A program made the position numbers and the translations under genes. A stretch of 34,630 nt of DNA from contig CALVDT010000028.1 of assembly GCA_944326385.1 (NCBI GenBank), forward strand, positions 1 through 34,630, given 5' to 3'. This DNA comes from an uncultured Bacteroidales bacterium. Its GTDB lineage: Bacteria; Bacteroidota; Bacteroidia; Bacteroidales; UBA932. A model generated the notes under the pieces. The model saw only the letters and a list, made by a program, of their open reading frames with translations, was not told the origin of the DNA and searched no databases. Positions 12,123 to 27,171 of the stretch are shown here, piece after piece. Position 1 is the first letter of the stretch; every line of letters begins with the position of its first letter.

Positions 12123-14219
12123 ATGGCTGTTCTTGAAAAAATCCGTGTAAAGTTCGGCATATTGATTTCCGTTGTGATAGCATTGGCATTGCTTTCATTC
12201 ATCATAGATCCGAACACCGTAAGTCAGGTAGCCTCATCGATGTCTGAAAAATATCGTGTAGGCAAGATCAACGGTAATTCCGTCTCATATCAGGACTTTG
12301 ACAATGAGTTGAATTACCAGAACCGCATTTTCGAGTATATGTACAGGAGAAATGCCAATACCGACCAGGAAATGCAGTATGTCAGGGATATGGCCTGGAA
12401 GACTTTCGTAGACAGGTACATGTTCCTTGCAAATGCCAGGAAGGCAGGTATACAGGTAGGGGAGTCCGAGCTTGTGGATCTCACGTCCGGAGATATGGTA
12501 TCGCCTGTAATCTCGCAGATATTCGTGGACGAGAGCGGGGCTTTTTCAAAGGAAATGCTAAGCAGCTATCTCCAGAATATGAAGTATGACCAGACAGGCC
12601 AGGCTGAAATGTTCTGGAAGTATCTTCAGAACACTGTAGCCACCGACCAGTATTATTCGAAGTACAACAGCCTGTTTACAGCATCCAATTTCATCAATCC
12701 GCTCATGATGACAAACGAGATAGCTGACAACAACAATTCGGCAAATGTCGAGTTTGTCATGCTTCCTTACGGTTATCAGAAAGATACTGCCATCGTAGTG
12801 TCGGATTCCGAGATAAGGGAGTACTACAGGGCGCACAAGCACCTGTACAGACAGAATGCCAGCAGGGATATAGAGTATGTGGTCTTTGAAGTGAAGCCTT
12901 CACAGACTGATATCGCAGATGTCAGGGAAGAGGTGGTAGGAGTCTATGACGAGTTCGCGTCCGCAGAGAATGTCAAGAATTTCCTCATGAAGAACTCTGA
13001 CAGACAGTATGTGGACGAATGGTACAAGAATGGAGAACTGAACACTGTGTCTTCGGATGTAAATGCCTTCGTATTCGACAATTCCACCAGAAAAGGTGAT
13101 GTATCCGATGTCATCACCAAAGGCAATACATTCTATGTAGCCAAGGTAATGGATTCTGCCATGGTCCCTGATTCGGTATTCGTAAAGGGAATCCTTCTCC
13201 AGGGTGTCCAGACGGATCTTGCAGACAGCCTTCTCAATGTCATCCGTACAGGCAAGGATAATTTCGGGAATGTCGCTGCACAGTACTCGGCCTTCCATAA
13301 TCCTCAGGCTGCCGAGACCGGTGATTATGGCTGGATGACCAAGAATACGATGTTCCCTGGTATGGAGTCGGTATTCACGGCCAAAGTCAACGACCTGTAT
13401 ATCATAGATACCCAGTATGGAAAGCATATTGTGAAGGTTACAGACAGGACCAGTCCTGTATTGAAGAAAAAGGTCGCAATACTTGAAAAGGAAGTTCTTC
13501 CGAGCGGCAATACAGTCAACGAGTATTATGTCCAGGCAAACGAACTTGCCACAAAGGCAGACGGGAAATATGACAACCTCAAGAAGGTGGCTGATGAAGA
13601 AGGTCTTGTGCTTCTTTCAAGAAACTATCTCCGTGAAGGTGAGGAGAACATAGGTTCCATAGATGACAGGACAAAGGAGATTTCGAAATGGGCATTCGAA
13701 GCCAAGGAGGGCAAAGTCTCCAATGTACTCAATATCAACAATGATTATTACGTTGTAGCGGCTCTGAAGAAGATACACAAGAAAGGCTATACACCTGTAA
13801 ATGAAGTAGCTTCAAGCATCAATTCGATACTGTACAGCCAGAAGCTCGGAGAGAAGAAGGCTGCCGAAGTAGCTGAAAAGATAGCAGGACTTGATTCCAT
13901 GCAGGCCATAGCCGATACGCTTGATACTACCGTAAGCACCCGTGAAGGTATTTCCTTCTCTTCGTACATGAGCCAGGGTCTTGATCCGGTATTCATAGGC
14001 GCTGTTTCCGTGGCTCCTGAAGGTGTGATATCGGCACCGCTTGCAGGCTCTGTAGGAGTATATGTCTACAAGGTGCTTTCACATGATACAGGGTCTTCAT
14101 TTACGGAGGATGATGTGAAGAGCCGTGCTGCCCAGATGGCTTATTACAGCAGCCAGTCATTGCTTCCTGTCATGATGCAGGATGCGGATGTTGAAGACAA
14201 CAGGGCAAGATTCTTCTAA
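12123..14219 (+). CDS. ppiD: PpiD-like periplasmic folding chaperone (SurA-N plus parvulin-like domain)
   Basis: 698 residues anchored by one N-terminal membrane helix (KFGILISVVIALALLSFIIDP, residues 10-30). A SurA_N-like region follows (YRVGKINGNSVSYQDFDNELNYQNRIFEYM and ARKAGIQVGESEL). A parvulin-like domain lies near residues 350-450 (FGNVAAQYSAFHNPQAAETGDYGWMTKNTMFPGMESVF, then YGKHIVKVTDR). The first parvulin strand normally reads RHI; here it is VKGILLQ, so prolyl-isomerase activity may be absent, as is reported for PpiD of E. coli. The C-terminal third resembles a second, more degenerate parvulin unit. The protein would help outer-membrane proteins fold after export. The gene ends in a strong terminator. 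Confidence 0.85.
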   Translation: MAVLEKIRVKFGILISVVIALALLSFIIDPNTVSQVASSMSEKYRVGKINGNSVSYQDFDNELNYQNRIFEYMYRRNANTDQEMQYVRDMAWKTFVDRYMFLANARKAGIQVGESELVDLTSGDMVSPVISQIFVDESGAFSKEMLSSYLQNMKYDQTGQAEMFWKYLQNTVATDQYYSKYNSLFTASNFINPLMMTNEIADNNNSANVEFVMLPYGYQKDTAIVVSDSEIREYYRAHKHLYRQNASRDIEYVVFEVKPSQTDIADVREEVVGVYDEFASAENVKNFLMKNSDRQYVDEWYKNGELNTVSSDVNAFVFDNSTRKGDVSDVITKGNTFYVAKVMDSAMVPDSVFVKGILLQGVQTDLADSLLNVIRTGKDNFGNVAAQYSAFHNPQAAETGDYGWMTKNTMFPGMESVFTAKVNDLYIIDTQYGKHIVKVTDRTSPVLKKKVAILEKEVLPSGNTVNEYYVQANELATKADGKYDNLKKVADEEGLVLLSRNYLREGEENIGSIDDRTKEISKWAFEAKEGKVSNVLNINNDYYVVAALKKIHKKGYTPVNEVASSINSILYSQKLGEKKAAEVAEKIAGLDSMQAIADTLDTTVSTREGISFSSYMSQGLDPVFIGAVSVAPEGVISAPLAGSVGVYVYKVLSHDTGSSFTEDDVKSRAAQMAYYSSQSLLPVMMQDADVEDNRARFF

Positions 14220-16939: not shown

Positions 16940-18085
16940 ATGAAAACTAAAATAGCAGAGAAATTCAAGACTCTTTTCGGAGAGGAAGGAGACTTTTTCG
17001 CTTCGGCGGGCAGAATCAACCTTATCGGTGAACACACAGACTATAATGGAGGTTTCGTCTTCCCCGGTGCCGTAGACAAGGGGATAATGGCAGAAATCAA
17101 GCTTAACGGAACCGAGAAAGTCCGTGTCTTCGCCCTGGATATTGATGAATATGTGGAGTTCGGCCTGAATGAAGAGGATGCTCCCGTGCAAAGCTGGGCC
17201 AGATATGTGTTCGGAGTATGCCGTGAAATCATAAAGAGGGGAGGCCATATTTCCGGATTCAATGCAGTATTTGCAGGAGATGTACCTCTCGGTGCCGGCA
17301 TGTCATCTTCAGCTGCTCTCGAAAGCACATTTGCCTTCGCCTTGAATTATCTGTTTGATCTCGGCATAGACAAATTCGAACTTGCAAGGATAGGACAGTC
17401 TACAGAGCACAATTACTGCGGAGTGAAATGCGGTATCATGGACCAGTTCGCTTCAGTCTTCGGAAAAGCGGGAAATCTCATGAGACTCGACTGCAAGACC
17501 ATGGAATACAAATATTATCCGTTCCATCCGGAAGGATACAAGCTGGTGCTTCTTGATTCCGCGGTGAAACATGAACTGGCTTCGTCCGCCTATAACAAGA
17601 GGCGCGAATCCTGCGAAAGGGCTGCCGCCGCCATAAGGAAGAACCATCCTGAGGTGGAGTTCCTGAGAGATGCCAGAATGGAATGGCTGGAGGAAGTCAA
17701 GGCTGACATTACAGAGGAGGATTACATGCGTGCAGAGTATGTGATAGATGAAGTGCAGAGAGTCCTGGATGTATGCGACGCCTTGGAGAGAGATGACTAT
17801 GAGACTGTCGGCCAGAAGATGTATGAGACCCATTACGGGATGAGCAAGCTTTATGAAGTAAGCTGCGAGGAACTGGATTTCCTGAACGATGTGGCTAAAA
17901 AGTGCGGAGTTACAGGTTCACGCGTCATGGGAGGCGGCTTCGGCGGATGTACCATCAATCTCGTAAAGAATGAATTGTATGATCATTTCATTTCCGAGGC
18001 TGTGGATTCCTACACAAAGAAATTCGGCCATGCTCCAAAGGTTTATGATGTGGTCATTAGCGATGGAGCACGGAAATTGCAGTAA
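16940..18085 (+). CDS. galK: Galactokinase
   Basis: A 381-residue GHMP kinase that phosphorylates alpha-D-galactose to galactose 1-phosphate, the entry step of the Leloir pathway in the cytoplasm. The galactokinase signature GRINLIGEHTDYNGG is at residues 24-38, the GHMP ATP loop PLGAGMSSSAALE at about 115-127, CGIMDQFASVFG contains the catalytic Asp, and the C-terminal GSRVMGGGFGGCTINLV is near residue 330. Length matches the family. It has its own promoter and ends in a perfect-stem terminator, so it is monocistronic. The transferase and epimerase (galT, galE) are not in the window; galM and a probable alpha-galactosidase lie 7-13 kb to the right. Confidence 0.97.
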   Translation: MKTKIAEKFKTLFGEEGDFFASAGRINLIGEHTDYNGGFVFPGAVDKGIMAEIKLNGTEKVRVFALDIDEYVEFGLNEEDAPVQSWARYVFGVCREIIKRGGHISGFNAVFAGDVPLGAGMSSSAALESTFAFALNYLFDLGIDKFELARIGQSTEHNYCGVKCGIMDQFASVFGKAGNLMRLDCKTMEYKYYPFHPEGYKLVLLDSAVKHELASSAYNKRRESCERAAAAIRKNHPEVEFLRDARMEWLEEVKADITEEDYMRAEYVIDEVQRVLDVCDALERDDYETVGQKMYETHYGMSKLYEVSCEELDFLNDVAKKCGVTGSRVMGGGFGGCTINLVKNELYDHFISEAVDSYTKKFGHAPKVYDVVISDGARKLQ

Positions 18086-18199: not shown

Positions 18200-18859
18200 T
18201 TATTTCATGATGGAAAGTATCCAGTCCCGGTCGATTCTTGAGAACCTGTCCTTGTCCGGTATGATATCCGGATTCCTGCTGATTATGCCGAGTGAATCTT
18301 CATAGACATTGTACCCGATATTCAGGCTCATCATCTGGCCTTCACGTGGATAGATGAAGACGATAGCCTTGCCGTCTTCAGTCTCTTCAAGCCTGTGGAA
18401 ATGGAAAGGGACGGAGGATGCCGGTGCAGCTTCTGATCTGTCCTTTGCCGTCAGTTCCATTTTTGTCACGTATTTGCACATCTCTACAGCCATATCATCA
18501 AGACCGGCATCGAAAATCAGGATTTTCTCCATCAATGCACCGACATCGCTTACCATTCTGAGCCTGTATCCTCCCATGGCTTTGGTATGATTGGCTATTG
18601 CCTGCATCTGCGACTCGGGAAGATCTCCGGAAGGCATGAGCCATATCATTGTCTTTCCTGCAGGGTCGTGATACAAGGTCTCGTATTTCGCCAGATTCGC
18701 CTGATGGCAATGCGGACATTCCCAGATGAAAAGCGAGCCGTCCCTGAGCCTGTCTTTCAGTTCGGGATTTTCAGCGGTATTTATGCTTTTGTAGATGGTT
18801 ATCCTGGTCTTCTCTCCGCATTTGCAGCATGGAGCCAGCGCTTCAGCTATGATGGACAT
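18200..18859 (-). CDS. CpXC-domain (zinc-ribbon-like) protein of unknown function
   Basis: 219 residues, no signal peptide or membrane helix. The N-terminal third carries two cysteine pairs, APCCKCGEKTRITIY and FIWECPHCHQANLAKYETLYHD, matching the CpXC domain, in which two C-P-x-C or similar knuckles probably bind zinc. The remainder (GYRLRMVSDVGALMEKILIFDAGLDDMAVEMCKYV and a C-terminal beta-rich part) is seen in other CpXC proteins, for which no function is established. The gene lies 63 bases downstream of the tandem barrel genes on the same strand and may be on their transcript; nothing in the sequence otherwise links their functions. Confidence 0.7.
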   Translation of the reverse strand: MSIIAEALAPCCKCGEKTRITIYKSINTAENPELKDRLRDGSLFIWECPHCHQANLAKYETLYHDPAGKTMIWLMPSGDLPESQMQAIANHTKAMGGYRLRMVSDVGALMEKILIFDAGLDDMAVEMCKYVTKMELTAKDRSEAAPASSVPFHFHRLEETEDGKAIVFIYPREGQMMSLNIGYNVYEDSLGIISRNPDIIPDKDRFSRIDRDWILSIMK

Positions 18860-18922: not shown

Positions 18923-21895
18923 TCAGAAGCTTATCTTTATGACAGGCTTTATCGAATGACTGATGACCCTGGAGCCGTTCTCGTTCATCATGGAGAACAA
19001 TGTACCGAAATTATAGGAATAATCCACCCCGAGTTCCACAGGTATGGCCCAGACAAGACGTCCGAACTGGAATGTCACGGAAGAACCGGCAGAGCACAGA
19101 TGCCGCTGCGGGTATCTGGAATATCCGTAGTCGAAATGTGGAGTTATGACCATCCTGTTCAGGTAGAGGAGCGGCGTGATGTTGATATCTCCGAGATGGA
19201 TCGGTATCGCATAATCGAAAGAGGCAAGGGCGGCGAATGTAGGACTGTACAGATCTCTCACCATGGTGCCTTCGAGCCCGCGCGGAAGAATCGCATAAGC
19301 CGGGTTGAAAATCCCTTTGTCAAGCAGCATCTGTGTCGTGACAGCTATTTTCCCTCCCTGGCCAGAACATATCCCCGGAAAATATCCGTACATATGGAAA
19401 TACCATGAACCTCCCAGCTTTATGGCCGGCAGTCTGCTGCTTCCGGCTGCGTACGACATCCTTATACCGGTCTCTGCGCCTATGCCGTATCTCGGGAAGA
19501 TTTCGGATTTCGCCATGTCACGGAGCAGCCAGAATTGTGCAGATGTTGTGACGGAATGGTTCAGCAGTCCGTTATACCTGCTGTTGTCTATTTCCCATGA
19601 TACCTGTGGCAGAAAATTCAATGTCCTGCCTCCGGTTTCCTTTGAGAGAGGGACATAAATATCGAGTTTCCCTGCCAAGGACGGCCCTTTGTGCGGCGCC
19701 CTTGTGACCGTACCGTCTTCAGCCAGAGTATAGTTCCATGACAGCCTGTCGTTTATGAAGAAACTGCCTTCTATTACGGGATACCATCCTGCGTATGTGA
19801 AACTCAGGTGTCCGCCGTGGACCCGGCCGGAACCGTCAGGATCAGGCCGCCAGCAGTAGCCGGCATTGCCGTAGGCTGTACCGAGAACGTTCTGCGACAG
19901 GACAGTAGCCCCGATTGAGACGTAATCATACAGTTTCTCTCCCTTAATTTCGGAAAGCCGCTCCATATTGCAGTATAACGGAGCCCATGAATGAAGCCTG
20001 AGCAGGTGCAGCCCCTTCCTGTATCTCCGGGGTGCGGATATTTCCACGTTTGCGATATCCGTATCTTCACTGAATGCCAGTCTTTCCTGCTGGACAAGCT
20101 CCTTTTCCACTTCCGATTTCCTTATAGACCCGAATGATGCGGGAATATGGAAAAGACCGGAAGAATCCGTTTCACGCAGATCGTATCCGAGATGGTCAAG
20201 CCGGCTGAAATACAGTTTTTTCCCTGAACCGTCGAAAACAAAATCCCTGGCTCCGTATTTTTCTGATACAAGCCGGAATGCTTCATATCCGTCACCTTTG
20301 TTTTCAAGCTGGTACAGATCAAAGACTCCGGATGCATCGGAAGAGAAGACGATCAGGCTGTCCCTGGTCCCGAGATTCCTTATGGTACATCTTGCAGGAC
20401 CGAGGATTTCCTGCCACGACAAGATGCCTGTATCTTTGTCAGCCACAGCCTTGTAGATGGAGCTTCCGAGATCCGAGACGCCAGAGACATACAGCCCGTC
20501 CTCTCCCCATGTGCATTCAGTGAAAAGCACTCCGTCTTCCGGGAATGGCAGTATATCCATTCCGGTTCCTGTCCAGGCATCGAGTATTATCACTGAAGTC
20601 TTGTCAGGTTCAGGGCCGTAGATTGCGGCTATCCTGGCTCCGTCGGGAGAGACACATGGATTGAACGCATTTATCTTCGAGGTCAATGTCCGGATCTTGC
20701 CTGAAGCCGTATCGTAATACCGGATGATGTTTGTCTGCCTCTGCTTCCATCGCCAGTCGCTGTCAATCTCGCTCCAGTAAAGGCGACCGGCGGTTTCCGA
20801 CCAGACCAACCTGCCGCAGCTTTCCGGGAATGAGGATATCCTTTCAATATCCTTGTCTGGAGATATCCTTACCAGGCAGGCGCTTTTATCCATTGTTTCC
20901 AGAACGGAGAACAATGTCCCGTCGGGCAGGACAGCGGTAGAAGACCAGCTGGAATATTTCCCGTCCTTCCGCGGAAAGACCGGAGAAGAGACAGTAAACG
21001 GGGCCCTTAGCTGCTGCTCGGCTGAATATAAGTCCCTGTGATAGTCCACGATTTTCCTGAATGTCTTCCTGTGCAGATTTCCTCCTGTAATGCGTTTGTT
21101 AAGCGAAGACCCATAGAAGATATCGTACGGGCGTCGGCTGATATGGGTAAGATAATCTGCGGTGTAGTCAGGTTTGTCGTACATGGTCCGGATGCCGCTG
21201 AGGATCATATAGCCGAAAGCGTCGAGATCGGGAGTATGGTTCCTGTACGAGCCTATGGCCCAGCGGTCCCATTTGTAGCCTCGGACATCTCCGGCATCGA
21301 ACGCGGCCATGTAATAATTCAGGAATTCCCCATAGCGGCCATATCCTGCCGGGACAAGAGATGAGGCAGCGACCGCGGCATCTCCTTCCAGCATCCATCT
21401 TTCAGGGTAAAGACCAAGAACCGCGGCAGGGAAGAATTCACCGAGTATCCAGGTAAATGGCTTGAATACATTCGATCTGGCAGCCTGAAAATGGGTGGCT
21501 TTCCTTGACAGGTTCACAACGGCAAGTTCCGATACCGGTCTGGAAAAATTCAGATGTCCCTGAGGCAGGACAGGCAGGTCTATCCTGGACGGAAACCGGG
21601 AGATACTGAAATTCCAGGCTGCGTTTTCCGGATGCAGCACCACCGGTATCCTTGTCGGCATGAAGCCCGAAGTCCCGGATATGGCTTTGCCGTAATGTCC
21701 GAAAAGCCTGGCATAATCCGTCGCAAGACTGTCATAGCCTTCCGGATAGATGATCGTGAAACCTGCGGCACGTATGCTGTTCCATCTGATATAGGACGGA
21801 TCCTGCAGGGTCTGGCTCAGCTGTGCATTGATAATCTGTGGGCACAGCAGAGCCGTCAGGGCAAGCAGAAGTTTATTTTTGACAGCAGTTCTCAT
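18923..21895 (-). CDS. Gluzincin-like/TolB-propeller/barrel protein, protease motif degenerate (paralogue B)
   Basis: About 990 residues from MRTAVKNKLLLALTALLCPQ, a signal peptide ending at INAQ. I place the start at 21895, 13 bases after the upstream stop; an ATG at 21919 overlaps that stop and would extend the leader. The N-terminal domain aligns along its length with paralogue A (PERWMLEGDAAVAAS against PDKWLLEGDAVVAET; AFGYMILSGIRTMYDKPDYT against AFGYMTISGIRYLYDVPDFT). However, where A has HESRH this protein reads NLSRK (residues 128-132), so zinc binding should be lost although Glu170 remains. A TolB-like propeller follows (FNPCVSPDGARIAAIYGPE, VFSSDASGVFDLYQLE). The linker RYRKGLHLLRLHSWAPLY leads into an aromatic beta-strand region ending in phenylalanine (PVIKISF), typical of outer-membrane barrels. 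No function is known. Confidence 0.7.
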   Translation of the reverse strand: MRTAVKNKLLLALTALLCPQIINAQLSQTLQDPSYIRWNSIRAAGFTIIYPEGYDSLATDYARLFGHYGKAISGTSGFMPTRIPVVLHPENAAWNFSISRFPSRIDLPVLPQGHLNFSRPVSELAVVNLSRKATHFQAARSNVFKPFTWILGEFFPAAVLGLYPERWMLEGDAAVAASSLVPAGYGRYGEFLNYYMAAFDAGDVRGYKWDRWAIGSYRNHTPDLDAFGYMILSGIRTMYDKPDYTADYLTHISRRPYDIFYGSSLNKRITGGNLHRKTFRKIVDYHRDLYSAEQQLRAPFTVSSPVFPRKDGKYSSWSSTAVLPDGTLFSVLETMDKSACLVRISPDKDIERISSFPESCGRLVWSETAGRLYWSEIDSDWRWKQRQTNIIRYYDTASGKIRTLTSKINAFNPCVSPDGARIAAIYGPEPDKTSVIILDAWTGTGMDILPFPEDGVLFTECTWGEDGLYVSGVSDLGSSIYKAVADKDTGILSWQEILGPARCTIRNLGTRDSLIVFSSDASGVFDLYQLENKGDGYEAFRLVSEKYGARDFVFDGSGKKLYFSRLDHLGYDLRETDSSGLFHIPASFGSIRKSEVEKELVQQERLAFSEDTDIANVEISAPRRYRKGLHLLRLHSWAPLYCNMERLSEIKGEKLYDYVSIGATVLSQNVLGTAYGNAGYCWRPDPDGSGRVHGGHLSFTYAGWYPVIEGSFFINDRLSWNYTLAEDGTVTRAPHKGPSLAGKLDIYVPLSKETGGRTLNFLPQVSWEIDNSRYNGLLNHSVTTSAQFWLLRDMAKSEIFPRYGIGAETGIRMSYAAGSSRLPAIKLGGSWYFHMYGYFPGICSGQGGKIAVTTQMLLDKGIFNPAYAILPRGLEGTMVRDLYSPTFAALASFDYAIPIHLGDINITPLLYLNRMVITPHFDYGYSRYPQRHLCSAGSSVTFQFGRLVWAIPVELGVDYSYNFGTLFSMMNENGSRVISHSIKPVIKISF

Positions 21896-21908
21896 GTCGC
21901 CCGGTCCC

Positions 21909-24900
21909 TCAGAAATCAATGCTGAATACAGGGCCGATGTAGTGTCTGCCCGGTTTTATTCCCTCCCGGCTCAGAGACTTGAATGAAGGCCCACCATTGT
22001 ATGAGTATGTGATTCCGAACGAGGCAGGGAACTGGAGTCCGATGAAATTCCCGAATTCCATCTCGATGGTGGCTCCTGCCGAGAACAACTGCATATCGTC
22101 ATTGAATGAATAATCGAAATGTGGTGTGATGATACCTCTTGACACATAGAACAGATTGCCTATATGGAAATCTCCCAGCGGGAACGGCATGGCGTAATCC
22201 GCCGAAAGCCGAATGCCTGACTTTGTGGCTGCAATCAGTTCGGAAAGTCTGCCGTAAGAGGAAAGGCCGCGCGGAAGAGTATTGATACCGGACATGAGGG
22301 GAGTCTCTTTTCCTATTCTCTGCCTGAGAGTTACAGTCAGCTTCAGACCCTGGTTGCCATGGATTCCCGGGACATATCCGTAAGCGTGCAGGTAAGCGGA
22401 CGGAGCGATCACACTGCCGGTTCCGGGATATACCGTGGCTCCGGCTTCTACACCAAAACCCAATTCAGGATATACATCCGCATGGGCTGCCGGAATCATC
22501 ATATAGTATCTTGCAGCTGCGGTCAGGGACTGGTACGGGACAGTCCAGCCGCCGGTGTTTCCGTATTTGGTGTACTTCATCTTCCTGGCTTCATGGTCAT
22601 ATGATGTAAGTACACGGTATTTCCATGTATTGACCCGGTCGTTGCTGATATTGTATGTTACCTGCGGGACAAGCCCTCTTGACCAGCCTCCGGAGGAGAA
22701 ATTGAAAGGTATATAGACCGAAACGGCGCCGGAAACCAACGGCATGTCCCCGTATCTGTATGCATATTGTTCCATGACCGGACCGCCGACAACCAGCGAG
22801 ACGTCAGAGCCTTCCAGAGTCCTTGCCGCCCTGTCATTGATATCCAGTCTGGCTTCTATTACAGGATACAGGCCTGACCATGTGAATTTCAGATGGGCGG
22901 AGTGTCTCCATTTTCCGGAAGTAACGGGATCCTGATGGGCAGAATAGCCGACGAATCCAGTGAAAGTCCCGAGATGGTTCTGGAAAAGAGCCGTGGCACC
23001 GAGGGATGCATAGCTGTAGTAGGTCTCGTAGCTGCCGCTGCTGATATTGTCATAATCGAAATACAGAGGAGCCCATGAATGCAGGTTGAAAAGATGAGGG
23101 AATTTCCTGTACCGTTCCGGTTCTGAAATGCCGATGGTGTCACTGTCCGGGATTCCGGCATTTCCCGCAATCCTCTTTTCCTGCCTGCTCAGGGAATCGG
23201 CCACCACGTACCTGTATCTTATGTTGAAGTCCACTTTCCGGTGAAGCAGGGAGTCCGCCTTTATCATGACCACAGGTGATCCTGTCCTGTCTCTGGTCGA
23301 GCATATCAGGTATTCGCTGTCATCGGTGAATGTATAGTCCGAACATCCGTACCGGGTCGAGGTCTCCTGCCATACTTCCCCGGTATGCGGGTCCATGGTG
23401 TATATCTCATTTGTGCCTGTCCTGTCTGACGTGAACATCAGATACCGTCCTTCAGCGGAAAAGTTGAAGAACATGACAGGTGACGGAGCCAGGGTCTCTT
23501 TCCAGATGTATTTCCGATCGACATGCCTGTCGGGACGGCTGATTTCCAGATGATAGATACCGATACCTGCAGATGACAGGGCCGTGCCGTATATGGTGTC
23601 GTCCAGCCACGCTGTCTCGATAAGCTGGAGAGAATCGGGCAGGGAGAAAGAGACTTCCTTTTCCCCGCTCTGTCCGTCGAGAATGCACAGATGCGAACGT
23701 CCGTCATCAGAGTATTCAGTCACGGCGATATGGCTGTCAGAAGGGGACGGAGTCGGATTGAAAAGCCTGCCTTCCCTGGTGAGAGTCCTTTTTCTTCCTG
23801 TCTTCAGGTCAAGATAACGTATGGCAGAGTCATATTTCAGCGACCATCTCGAATCAGGCAAAGTCTCGCTCCAGAATATCTTCCCGAGGGGTTCCGACCA
23901 ATACAGCATGCCTGCATGGCTGCCGAATGACGAGATTGTCTCTTCCTTTCCGTCCTCGTTTATCCTTACCAGCTTCCGGCTCTTGTTGAAGCTTTCCTTC
24001 AATGAATACAGGTCTCCGTCTGCAATAAGATTCTCTTCATACTCGGTAAATACCTTTGCCGGAGCTGAAACCTGCCTGTATGGCAGAAACGGAGCCCTTT
24101 CCTTCATGTCCTCAGTCCAGATGCCGTGGTACAGCTCCATGGATCCGGAGACGAGCTCCCTGAATTTCCTGCCTGTAAGTCTTTTGCTGACAGTGTTTCT
24201 TGCCACTATATCATACGGCCGTACGGCATAATGGGTAAGGAGCTGCCCGGTGAAATCGGGCACATCGTAAAGATATCTTATCCCGCTGATGGTCATGTAT
24301 CCGAATGCATAATGGTCAGGTGTGTAATGCCAGTATGAACCATAAGCCCATCTGTCTGCATTCCTGAAATCCCCGCTATCGAATGCTATGCGGTAATAGT
24401 TCATGAAATCGCTGACCCTGCCCCTTCCTGATCCGGACAATGCAGTTTCAGCCACCACCGCATCCCCTTCCAGAAGCCATTTGTCGGGATAAATGCCGGC
24501 CAATGCCCCATTGAACATCTCACCGAATATATAATAGAACGGCCTGAAGCAATGGCTGAGTCCGAATTGCATCTGTGCCGTGTGTCTGGATTCGTGTATG
24601 GCAAGCATTGTAGCCCATGGAAGCGGTTCAGGGGCATAACCTGCAGGACTGGTGTAGAAATCCATCCTTTTCGGAGCCCAGGCTACCGAGCCGTTGGACA
24701 TGGCACTGTACGGATGCAGGATTACCGGCATTCTGGTCCTGGTCATCTGTCCCGGAGCAAAGCCTGCGCTCCTCGACACGGCAGATCTGTATCTTTCAAG
24801 TTCCAGAGCATAGCTTCTGGCCGTGGAGTCGAGGCCGGAAGGGTATATGACCTTGTAATAAGGACTTTCAATATATGACCATCTTACGGATGCAGGGTCG

Positions 24901-24986
24901 TCCCCGCCCAGGAAGAACTGGGCAGACACTGTCTGTGCCGTCAGGAACAGGACAGCTGCGGTTATGATGTGTCTGATCACTTTCAT
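21909..24986 (-). CDS. Outer-membrane gluzincin-like/TolB-propeller/barrel protein with intact HExxH (paralogue A)
   Basis: 1025 residues. Signal peptide MKVIRHIITAAVLFLTAQTVSAQ. Residues about 30-290 form a metallopeptidase-like domain: HESRH at 131-135 supplies the HExxH zinc motif and LLEGDA (Glu173) the downstream glutamate expected of gluzincins, about 38 residues later. Residues about 310-600 show repeated propeller strands (LFNPTPSPSDSHIAVTEYSDDGRS, MFTSDRTGTNEIYTMDPHTGEV, DDSEYLICSTRDRTG). After the linker RYRKFPHLFNLHSWAPLY (residues 625-642) comes a barrel-like region ending in phenylalanine (GPVFSIDF), the usual outer-membrane assembly signal. I infer an outer-membrane protein with a periplasmic or surface protease and propeller. 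The substrate is unknown. The gene heads a unit with paralogue B and possibly the CpXC gene. Confidence 0.72.
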   Translation of the reverse strand: MKVIRHIITAAVLFLTAQTVSAQFFLGGDDPASVRWSYIESPYYKVIYPSGLDSTARSYALELERYRSAVSRSAGFAPGQMTRTRMPVILHPYSAMSNGSVAWAPKRMDFYTSPAGYAPEPLPWATMLAIHESRHTAQMQFGLSHCFRPFYYIFGEMFNGALAGIYPDKWLLEGDAVVAETALSGSGRGRVSDFMNYYRIAFDSGDFRNADRWAYGSYWHYTPDHYAFGYMTISGIRYLYDVPDFTGQLLTHYAVRPYDIVARNTVSKRLTGRKFRELVSGSMELYHGIWTEDMKERAPFLPYRQVSAPAKVFTEYEENLIADGDLYSLKESFNKSRKLVRINEDGKEETISSFGSHAGMLYWSEPLGKIFWSETLPDSRWSLKYDSAIRYLDLKTGRKRTLTREGRLFNPTPSPSDSHIAVTEYSDDGRSHLCILDGQSGEKEVSFSLPDSLQLIETAWLDDTIYGTALSSAGIGIYHLEISRPDRHVDRKYIWKETLAPSPVMFFNFSAEGRYLMFTSDRTGTNEIYTMDPHTGEVWQETSTRYGCSDYTFTDDSEYLICSTRDRTGSPVVMIKADSLLHRKVDFNIRYRYVVADSLSRQEKRIAGNAGIPDSDTIGISEPERYRKFPHLFNLHSWAPLYFDYDNISSGSYETYYSYASLGATALFQNHLGTFTGFVGYSAHQDPVTSGKWRHSAHLKFTWSGLYPVIEARLDINDRAARTLEGSDVSLVVGGPVMEQYAYRYGDMPLVSGAVSVYIPFNFSSGGWSRGLVPQVTYNISNDRVNTWKYRVLTSYDHEARKMKYTKYGNTGGWTVPYQSLTAAARYYMMIPAAHADVYPELGFGVEAGATVYPGTGSVIAPSAYLHAYGYVPGIHGNQGLKLTVTLRQRIGKETPLMSGINTLPRGLSSYGRLSELIAATKSGIRLSADYAMPFPLGDFHIGNLFYVSRGIITPHFDYSFNDDMQLFSAGATIEMEFGNFIGLQFPASFGITYSYNGGPSFKSLSREGIKPGRHYIGPVFSIDF

Positions 24987-25146: not shown

Positions 25147-27171
25147 ATGGAACTGAAAAATCTGGCTGTCATTGCCGCTGTCCTGCTGCCGGTCTGCTGT
25201 GCGGCAGCTGCCGTGAAACATTATGAAGTAGCATCTCCTGACGGGGCTTTGGCATTGAGGGTTGATGTCGGGGAGAAGATTACCTGGTCGCTTTCCCATG
25301 ACGGAGATGAACTTATTGTGGAATCCCCGGTGTCGATGACCCTCGAAGACGGGAGTTCGTATGGAATACAGCCCGGCCGTGCAGCATGCAGGAAGGTTTC
25401 CGTGGACCGGACGATAGAGGCATCGTTTTATAAGAAAGCCGAAATCAGGGATTGCTTCAATGAAATGACATTGAACTTCAAAAGTTTCAGTTTGATTTTC
25501 AGGGCATATGACGAAGGTGTTGCCTACAGATTCGTATCGAAGTCGAAAACCCCGTTCAAGGTGGTTTCTGAAGAAGCGGAATTCGTTTTTCCTCAGGATG
25601 CCAAGGCATATATCCCGTATGTGTTAAAGGCTGGCACAGGTGACGATGTTTTCGAACCACAGTTTTTCAATTCATTCGAGAACACTTATGAGTATTCCGA
25701 GCTTTCCGGATGGGAGACAGGAAGACTTGCCTTCCTTCCGCTTGTAGTGGAGGCTGCCGGAGGGAGGAAGATCTGTATCACGGAAGCCGATCTGCAGAAT
25801 TATCCCGGGATGTATCTGTACAATTCCGATGGAAATTCGACATTGGAGGGCGTTTTCGCGGCAGTCCCTGACAAGATTGAACAAGGCGGGCACAATATGC
25901 TGCAAGGCGTGGTTAAGTCACGCAAGCCGTATATTGCCGAGTGCGGGCCAGGAGAAGTCTTCCCATGGCGAGTCGTTGTCGTATCGGAAGAAGACAAGGA
26001 ACTGGCGGATAACGATATGGTATACAAACTGGCCGAGCCTGCCGACCCAGACATCGACTTCAGCTGGGTGAAACCGGGGAAAGTGGCGTGGGAATGGTGG
26101 AATGACTGGAATCTGTATGGTGAAGATGTTGATTTCAGGACCGGGATCAACAATCCTACGTACAAATACTACATAGACTTTGCATCTGAACACGGCATCG
26201 AATACGTGATACTGGACGAGGGGTGGGCAGTGAACCTGCAGGCCGATCTCATGCAGGTTGTTCCGGAGATTGACCTGCAGGAGCTGGTAGACTACGGCAA
26301 GGAGCGCAACGTAGGGATAATCCTCTGGGCCGGTTACCTGGCATTCGACAGGGATCTTGAGGATGTGTGCAGATATTTCTCGGATATGGGAGTGAAAGGC
26401 TTCAAGGTCGATTTCATGGACCGTGACGACCAGTTGATGGTACGGTTCCACAGCAGAGCTGCGGAGGTCGCCGCCAGATATCATCTCATGCTGGACTATC
26501 ACGGGACTTACAAGCCGACCGGTCTTCACAGGACGTGGCCGAATGTGGTGAACTACGAGGGCGTACATGGTCTGGAGCAGATGAAGTGGTCACCGGTCGG
26601 AGAAGACCAGGTGACATATGATGTCACGATTCCGTTCATCAGGATGGTTGCCGGCCCGATGGACTATACGCAGGGAGCGATGCGGAATGCATCGAAGGCA
26701 AACTACTATCCTGTAAACAACGAGCCAATGAGCCAGGGCACGAGATGCCGCCAGCTTGCGGAATACGTGGTGTTCGAATCCCCTGTGAATATGCTGTGCG
26801 ACTCGCCGTCGAATTACAAGGCCGAGCCGGAATGTACGGAATTCATCGCGGGAGTGCCTGAAGTTTGGGATGAGACGATAGCGTTGGACGGGAAAATCGC
26901 CGAATACGTGGTGATTGCCCGCCGCAAGGGCGATACATGGTACGTCGGCGGCATGACGGACTGGAATGCACGTACACTTACCATCGACTTGTCGTTTCTC
27001 GGAGAAGGACAGTATTCGATGGAGCTTTACAGGGACGGTGCCAATGCCGACCGTGCAGCCCGCGACTATCGGAAGGAAACGATACCTGTCCCTTCGGATC
27101 TGAAACTGACTGTCAGCATGGCTCCGGGCGGAGGTTTCGCTGCGAAAATCACCGCCGACAAGACAATTTAG
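25147..27171 (+). CDS. Glycoside hydrolase family 97, probable retaining alpha-galactosidase
   Basis: 674 residues with a signal peptide (MELKNLAVIAAVLLPVCCAAAA), so exported to the periplasm. The GH97 layout is complete: an N-terminal beta-sandwich (SPDGALALRVDVGEKITWSLSHDG), the (beta/alpha)8 barrel (KVAWEWWNDWNLYGED, YVILDEGWAVNLQADLMQV, GIILWAGYLAFDRDL) and a C-terminal beta domain. Residues GFKVDFMDRDDQ contain Asp422 at the place where retaining GH97 alpha-galactosidases have their nucleophile; inverting SusB-type alpha-glucosidases lack this Asp. NYEGVHGLEQMKW (Glu471, Glu477) holds the acid/base and calcium-ligand region. I therefore favour alpha-galactosidase. galM downstream and galK upstream would process the galactose released. 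It is divergent from the tandem barrel genes. Confidence 0.88.
   Translation: MELKNLAVIAAVLLPVCCAAAAVKHYEVASPDGALALRVDVGEKITWSLSHDGDELIVESPVSMTLEDGSSYGIQPGRAACRKVSVDRTIEASFYKKAEIRDCFNEMTLNFKSFSLIFRAYDEGVAYRFVSKSKTPFKVVSEEAEFVFPQDAKAYIPYVLKAGTGDDVFEPQFFNSFENTYEYSELSGWETGRLAFLPLVVEAAGGRKICITEADLQNYPGMYLYNSDGNSTLEGVFAAVPDKIEQGGHNMLQGVVKSRKPYIAECGPGEVFPWRVVVVSEEDKELADNDMVYKLAEPADPDIDFSWVKPGKVAWEWWNDWNLYGEDVDFRTGINNPTYKYYIDFASEHGIEYVILDEGWAVNLQADLMQVVPEIDLQELVDYGKERNVGIILWAGYLAFDRDLEDVCRYFSDMGVKGFKVDFMDRDDQLMVRFHSRAAEVAARYHLMLDYHGTYKPTGLHRTWPNVVNYEGVHGLEQMKWSPVGEDQVTYDVTIPFIRMVAGPMDYTQGAMRNASKANYYPVNNEPMSQGTRCRQLAEYVVFESPVNMLCDSPSNYKAEPECTEFIAGVPEVWDETIALDGKIAEYVVIARRKGDTWYVGGMTDWNARTLTIDLSFLGEGQYSMELYRDGANADRAARDYRKETIPVPSDLKLTVSMAPGGGFAAKITADKTI

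Follow-up and report, generated by a model that had tools for sequence, protein, structure and literature searches.

A conserved pair of paralogues in an uncultured Bacteroidales bacterium: a predicted barrel-anchored gluzincin-like peptidase and its adjacent pseudopeptidase

Two adjacent genes, here called A and B, are found on contig CALVDT010000028.1 of an uncultured Bacteroidales bacterium (assembly GCA_944326385.1). The whole stretch analysed, 34,630 nucleotides (nt), is referred to as the window. The two genes are a genuine, conserved pair that includes a pseudopeptidase; their architecture is known in kind, and B is the unusual part. A is predicted to be a zinc-dependent, gluzincin-like peptidase joined to a propeller and a barrel. 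B is its paralogue, in which the zinc motif is lost in every copy read. Papers cited by PMC number are represented here by the available parts of their text.

A BLASTP alignment of A with B runs over nearly the full length of both proteins, with 361 of 1047 positions identical (34%, E-value = 0.0). The AlphaFold2 models have predicted local distance difference test (pLDDT) scores of 88.3 for A and 86.8 for B, with predicted template modelling (pTM) scores of 0.86 and 0.85, respectively. Both models display a gluzincin-like domain, then a TolB-like beta-propeller, then a 16-strand barrel, and the propeller has the six-bladed TolB-type fold. A preliminary description of the window, made from the letters alone, had proposed two adjacent paralogues of about 1000 residues with a shared three-part layout and a C-terminal barrel, and the open reading frames and both models agree with it. 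It had also pointed to a shared linker motif, HSWAPLY. The motif is present at the propeller-barrel junction of both proteins, but it varies on a signature shared by the whole family and is no mark of the pair; all 99 non-B rows in the family alignment have its His. This alignment, used for the row counts below, holds 99 non-B rows, in which the A of the window is counted twice, and 12 full B rows, a copy of the window's B (L002) having been removed beforehand. Pfam and NCBIfam scans of A and B give weak propeller matches only and name neither end of either protein. Structure searches with the whole-protein models show no Omp85, gluzincin or BepA chain among the 50 best listed for each, a result that excludes nothing because the propeller filled the lists.

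The N-terminal domain was compared as a profile of 44 rows from the window, the order and the phylum. Against 21 Peptidase_MA_2 members hhalign gives a probability of 96.3 (E-value = 1.5e-9, 218 columns), and against 20 M1 members the match is weaker (probability 36.6, E-value = 3.7e-4), both E-values referring to single comparisons. In the Peptidase_MA_2 alignment HExRH is placed on HELVH and WF.EGDA on WF.EG.AE. A galactokinase control is not matched (probability 0.1), and no match is found among PDB sequences up to E-value = 10. Single sequences of the domain show weak similarity to the HExxH families DUF2268 (5 of 44) and flagellinolysin (10 of 44), and to non-peptidase families as well. 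On the hhalign comparison A is classed as a divergent relative of Peptidase_MA_2 and not as a member of that family, in keeping with the gluzincin-like N-terminal domain first proposed. The HESRH motif of A lies in one predicted helix and Glu173 in a second helix downstream, as is expected of a gluzincin from sequence and model. A would be a zinc-dependent gluzincin-like peptidase.

Outside B the zinc site is nearly invariant. HExxH is present in 98 of the 99 non-B rows (97 HExRH, 1 HEYYH), and EG[DE]A, which includes the third-ligand Glu, is likewise present in 98; the exception in each count is a partial row. Alignments A3 (74 rows) and A5 (44 rows) show HExRH and EGDA without exception. All 80 non-B open reading frames among 89 locus open reading frames carry HExxH, the remaining nine being B, and in L225 the motif is found behind a long N-terminal extension. 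None of the 12 full B rows has HExxH, a loss beyond chance when 98/99 is set against 0/12, and the N-terminal piece of a thirteenth copy, in genome G202, reads YTSRR. Each of the 12 rows has lost both His residues and the catalytic Glu, with N, S or Y at position 131, L, M or T at 132 and K, Q or R at 135. At position 173, that of the third ligand, 10 of the 12 have S, A, K, D, N or H. The preliminary description had read HESRH and Glu173 in A and NLSRK at the aligned place in B, as the sequences do; its statement that B keeps the EGDA glutamate holds for the window and G254 and not for the ten other rows. The Ser-Arg of the motif and GDA stay in B, the Arg in every full row. B does not display the HExxH plus Glu of an active gluzincin, HExxH being absent from 13 of 13 copies.

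Orthologues of B were searched in 400 genomes of the genus (Cryptobacteroides group) with a cut-off of E-value = 1e-100, at which heavily broken copies would be missed. They are found in 13 genomes of these gut bacteria, with at least 57% identity, and the next best match, at 38%, is an A-type protein. A full-length open B frame is present in 12 of the 13. Eleven of the 13 genomes have complete A and B genes side by side and in the same orientation on a single contig. In the two others the contig ends within the pair: B follows directly on the A C-terminus in G407, and A is directly followed by the B N-terminus in G202. The proposed adjacency of active and inactive forms thus extends to each of the 13 genomes. 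The A stop and the likely ATG of B are 2–22 nt apart in 10 of 11 pairs, a spacing that points to co-expression. In G138 no ATG is found within the first 60 B codons scanned.

Some B-less genomes, e.g. G013 and G134, have A immediately next to the gene for a CpXC-domain protein; elsewhere B sits between the two. Thus B looks like the product of a tandem duplication. In a tree with an outgroup, built without four fragments and two duplicates from the window, the 12 B rows form one clade and branch outside the A rows of the genus. Without the outgroup, the whole-protein and barrel trees place B beside G126, G392, G325 and G124, and the tree of the N-terminal domain places it beside the A clade and G076. 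Approximately unbiased tests disfavour B and the A clade as one clade (p = 0.0086; 0.0071, 0.0499, 0.0347); the stem of B is long, however, and the program cautions about long-branch attraction.

B is under purifying selection. The ratio of nonsynonymous to synonymous substitution rates (dN/dS) was estimated with a pairwise codon model for six genome pairs, which share genomes, and three domains, giving 18 estimates for each gene. A shows values of 0.036–0.166 in all 18. B shows 0.055–0.169 in the 15 unsaturated estimates (dS 1.0 to 2.4), the other three, with dS above 7, being saturated and unused; each B domain in each pair tested is well below 1. The ratio for the N-terminal domain is higher in B than in A in six of six pairs, and that for the barrel is lower in B in six of six. 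Mean identities over the 55 pairs among 11 genomes are 0.827 (A) and 0.676 (B) for the N-terminal domain, 0.683 and 0.549 for the propeller, and 0.689 and 0.703 for the barrel. B thus gave up the additional constraint on its peptidase domain and kept the constraint on its barrel. Of columns 121–180, 21 of 60 are invariant in B against 43 of 60 in A. Forty-eight columns are invariant within the 11 A and within the 11 B sequences yet differ between A and B. The preliminary description held that unlinked genes with relaxed selection on B would speak against the pair; overall this is not what is seen, though the B of G202 is damaged. A correlation between A and B distances (r = 0.73) was set aside as evidence of interaction, because shared ancestry explains it.

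A profile of 47 barrels gives a score of 25.3 against Omp85 barrels (E-value = 8.7e-5, probability 32), and 2.3 against FadL; the reversed profile scores 5.9 and 100 block-shuffled decoys score 15.4 or less. In G000 both matches to PF01103 (Omp85) are on contigs C78 and C53, not C28. The sequence LPRG[LF] is situated between strands 11 and 12 of the models and is present in 12 of 12 B rows. In Omp85 proteins the loop between strands 11 and 12 is loop 6 (L6). It carries a VRGF/Y motif (PMC12611786), and on the model we take the LPRGL loop of A to occupy the place of that motif. The link of the barrel to Omp85 is suggestive. An Omp85-like barrel would put the N-terminal domains in the periplasm.

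The reading preferred here is that A is a periplasmic, barrel-tethered peptidase and B a retained, non-cutting partner in outer-membrane protein upkeep; its probability is put at roughly one half. The A barrel in the outer membrane would carry the propeller and the peptidase domain, which most likely face the periplasm, and A would cut misassembled or maturing outer-membrane proteins in a tethered counterpart of BepA-type quality control. B would have been born by tandem duplication of an A-type gene. It would have lost HExxH before its clade diversified and the third ligand afterwards in most lineages, and purifying selection would since have kept it mainly for barrel and propeller. B may bind or hold substrate, or pair with A, while A cuts. 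The preliminary description had suggested a two-subunit surface or periplasmic machine with B binding or regulating; the domains and the adjacent active/inactive pair are supported, and the two proteins may form one machine. Homology, the predicted architecture, motif loss, adjacency and purifying selection are what the data show, whereas proteolysis by A, the periplasmic side, the kind of substrate and any contact of A with B are inferred.

Several results weigh against this reading. With the untrimmed alignment the hhalign match of barrel to Omp85 is weak (E-value = 0.0088, probability 4.6) and the FadL control is close behind (E-value = 0.038, probability 1.4). Pfam shows neither PF01103 nor PF13485 (Peptidase_MA_2) in A or B at E-values up to 1, and no PF13485 match in G000. 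BamI, a six-bladed propeller, sits on the outer face of a Bacteroidota beta-barrel assembly machinery (BAM) complex (PMC12578637), and thus a propeller alone is no proof of a periplasmic place. Nearly all members of the genus have A-type genes: the B sequence finds a match, mostly through A, in 186 of 200 genomes and in 78 of the 79 better ones. B beside A therefore says little on dependence. The B of G202 has an in-frame stop and lies in pieces in two frames. Three of 15 members of the A clade (G127, G134 and G390) carry A without B although they fall inside the B-bearing clade, and tblastn at E-value = 1e-3 shows no B remnant within the 16–18 kb examined; B has been lost there or was not yet gained. 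Together with A-bearing, B-less genomes elsewhere, these show B to be dispensable for A.

A less probable reading, though one to be taken seriously, is that B works independently of A as a neofunctionalised Omp85-like protein (insertase, translocon or anchor) and shares with A only its origin and operon position. The B barrel is constrained as much as that of A or more and keeps LPRG throughout, A-type genes manage without B in other genomes, and the 48 columns fixed differently in the two proteins fit as well. However, B adjoins A wherever it is found, and the short gap between them speaks for co-expression.

It is rather unlikely that the tie is closer than the preferred reading supposes, with A and B as an obligate two-barrel outer-membrane machine of the clade in which B would receive or gate substrate and A would cut. 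The analogy is with the mitochondrial processing peptidase (MPP) and other M16B pairs. Members of M16 have a clam-shell fold with no propeller or barrel. In the M16B heterodimers (MPP alpha/beta; TTHA1264/1265; SPH2681/2682) homologous catalytic and motif-less subunits act together, and TTHA1264/1265 are encoded by neighbouring genes, as are A and B (PMC12731061). The M16 motif is HXXEH and that of A is HESRH; A and B are thus no M16B proteins, and only the mode of working is compared. If A and B do pair, the result would be a peptidase heteromer of one active and one dead subunit on Omp85-like barrels, for which no recognised precedent was found in the literature searched.

Less probable again is delivery of the N-terminal domains of A and B to the cell surface through the barrel, in the manner of PlpD, whose class we take to be the one labelled type Vd. 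A would then cut extracellular protein. In PlpD-type patatin-Omp85 proteins a hydrolase is N-terminal to an Omp85 barrel, as is proposed for A, and the passenger crosses the membrane; PlpD differs in being another enzyme, in its POTRA domain and in releasing the passenger outside (PMC4104836). BamI offers a precedent for a propeller on the outer face (PMC12578637). However, no POTRA domain is apparent in the A and B models, as judged from secondary structure, and the propeller of both is like that of TolB, a periplasmic protein (PMC4104836).

It is very unlikely that B has gained a new site, catalytic or for a ligand, from Arg139 and a new His143 on the former active-site helix. His143 is found in 12 of 12 B rows where Gln is found in 99 of 99 non-B rows (A-position 138, same helix), and Arg139 is equally constant in B. 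However, the helix displays no known catalytic signature, 48 columns differ in the same manner, and conservation around the helix is lower in B than in A. Decay of B to a pseudogene, to which the broken G202 copy and the three B-less clade members might point, is hardly credible given the 12 full-length frames and the low dN/dS in each domain of each pair.

The A family reaches well beyond the window. A has a match in 50 of 61 genomes, its own included, and at E-value = 1e-10 the family profile finds matches in 161 of 296 genomes of the phylum, many of the places listed lying in the propeller only. Nine long proteins from elsewhere in the phylum all match PD40, and six of these also match Peptidase_MA_2 (E-values up to 0.01; four over the cut-off). 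One of the nine, L300, is alone in showing Peptidase_MA_2, PD40 and Omp85 (over cut-off) in a Pfam scan of the whole protein. L299 is discordant, with Omp85 at 48.7 bits in the open reading frame scan and none in the whole-protein scan (E-values up to 0.01). Open reading frames matched by both PF13485 and PF01103 include G434:C73, G439:C9, G429:C23, G436:C11 and G424:C10. The Peptidase_MA_2-PD40-Omp85 proteins, mostly of about 1000–1280 amino acids (aa) and from other classes of the phylum, have the domain order of A and an HExxH...EG.A motif. In L299 and L300 an RG motif lies about 120 residues from the C-terminus, as in the A-type barrel. The A family is unlike them in carrying HExRHxxQ and EGDA and in giving no Pfam match at these domains. 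Judged by sequence, the architecture of A is a known one from which A has diverged, the outlying proteins having the same domains in the same order.

In all, Peptidase_MA_2 matches are found in 35 of 61 phylum genomes at several places each, mostly in open reading frames of about 950–1280 aa, some with an Omp85 match at the other end; little was found in the literature about this large family. Within the genus, a second A-type gene, with the motif HEGRH, is present in G003 and G173 (L079 14823–17927 and L080 14576–17686), about 6 kb away from the first gene, in opposite orientation and on a long branch. This is a separate copy in which the zinc motif is kept.

A subfamily named WD40-Omp85 has been published, presumably by Heinz and Lithgow in 2014. 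Its members place a beta-propeller, most like that of TolB, ahead of an Omp85-type barrel, as A and B are predicted to do, and the subfamily is not among the clusters with predicted POTRA domains in the available text (PMC4104836). That text names no gluzincin domain or inactive tandem copy, and A and B differ further in having no Pfam Omp85 match. With this subfamily published and L300 displaying all three Pfam domains, the design is not without precedent; the preliminary description had known of no described system of this kind. The architecture is known in kind and the A family is a diverged relative. BepA is a protein of family M48 with tetratricopeptide repeats and no barrel. It acts as a periplasmic Zn-metallopeptidase on LptD at BAM, a role like that proposed for A (PMC8423444). 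The outer-membrane assembly system of Bacteroidota is unusual, and gluzincin-propeller-barrel proteins are not mentioned in the available parts of two accounts of it (PMC12611786, PMC12578637). The BAM subunits of those accounts, and PG1058 of the type IX secretion system, were considered as the identity of A and B and rejected as different proteins by their available descriptions. The natural pair of active and inactive forms is a ready control, and the kept barrel and helix Arg of B point to a non-catalytic job of the family.

Coordinates of the two genes, their features and the CpXC-domain gene in the window
Feature	Position	Strand	Remarks
Gene A	21909..24986	minus	1025 aa; predicted barrel-anchored gluzincin-type metallopeptidase; relatives across genus and phylum
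Gene B	18923..21895	minus	990 aa from ATG 21895; pseudopeptidase paralogue of A
B, open reading frame finder version	18923..21919	minus	998 aa from TTG 21919
A N-terminal gluzincin-like domain, residues 25–300	24087..24914	minus	profile-profile comparison
A zinc-site motif HESRH (131–135)	24582..24596	minus	in predicted helix 124–143
A Glu173 (EGDA), predicted third zinc ligand	24468..24470	minus	predicted helix 169–183
A TolB-like beta-propeller, about residues 300–585	23232..24089	minus	
A C-terminal barrel, Omp85-like	21918..23084	minus	16 strands counted in model
A LPRGL motif (904–908)	22263..22277	minus	loop between model strands 11 and 12
B degenerate motif NLSRK (open reading frame residues 136–140)	21500..21514	minus	predicted helix 129–148
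B Glu178 (EGDA)	21386..21388	minus	alignment of B rows
B His143	21491..21493	minus	B-specific column; one helical turn from the kept Arg, a possible new site
B C-terminal barrel (642–996 in model)	18932..19996	minus	16 strands counted
CpXC-domain gene	18200..18859	minus	Pfam PF14353, E-value = 6.7e-35; frequent neighbour

The start of B is most likely the ATG, 13 nt past the A stop; the TTG is the start given by the open reading frame finder only. Both proteins have N-termini that read like signal peptides (…VSA/QFF in A, …INA/QLS in B), each ending before a Gln. A Gln just after the cleavage site has been described for substrates of signal peptidase I in Bacteroidetes (PMC5837995).

The CpXC-domain gene is found downstream of A, or of B in genomes that carry B. 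G202 (L066 7508–9029) and G407 (L113 4514–6035) have a block of open reading frames of equal lengths (290/117/148 aa) between B and the CpXC-domain gene, the comparison being one of lengths only. In G202 part of an A-type C-terminus also lies about 2.5 kb away from B, suggesting local rearrangement. A SurA/PpiD-like gene (12123–14216), four genes beyond the CpXC-domain gene, recurs in the neighbourhood; it fits outer-membrane upkeep and proves nothing. A galactokinase gene is situated at 16940–18085. On the other side, a gene for a GH97 retaining alpha-galactosidase (25147–27171, plus strand, NCBIfam NF053844) is the divergent neighbour of A. It is listed in none of the 48 loci compared, some of which end before that place, and thus appears inserted in the lineage of the window.

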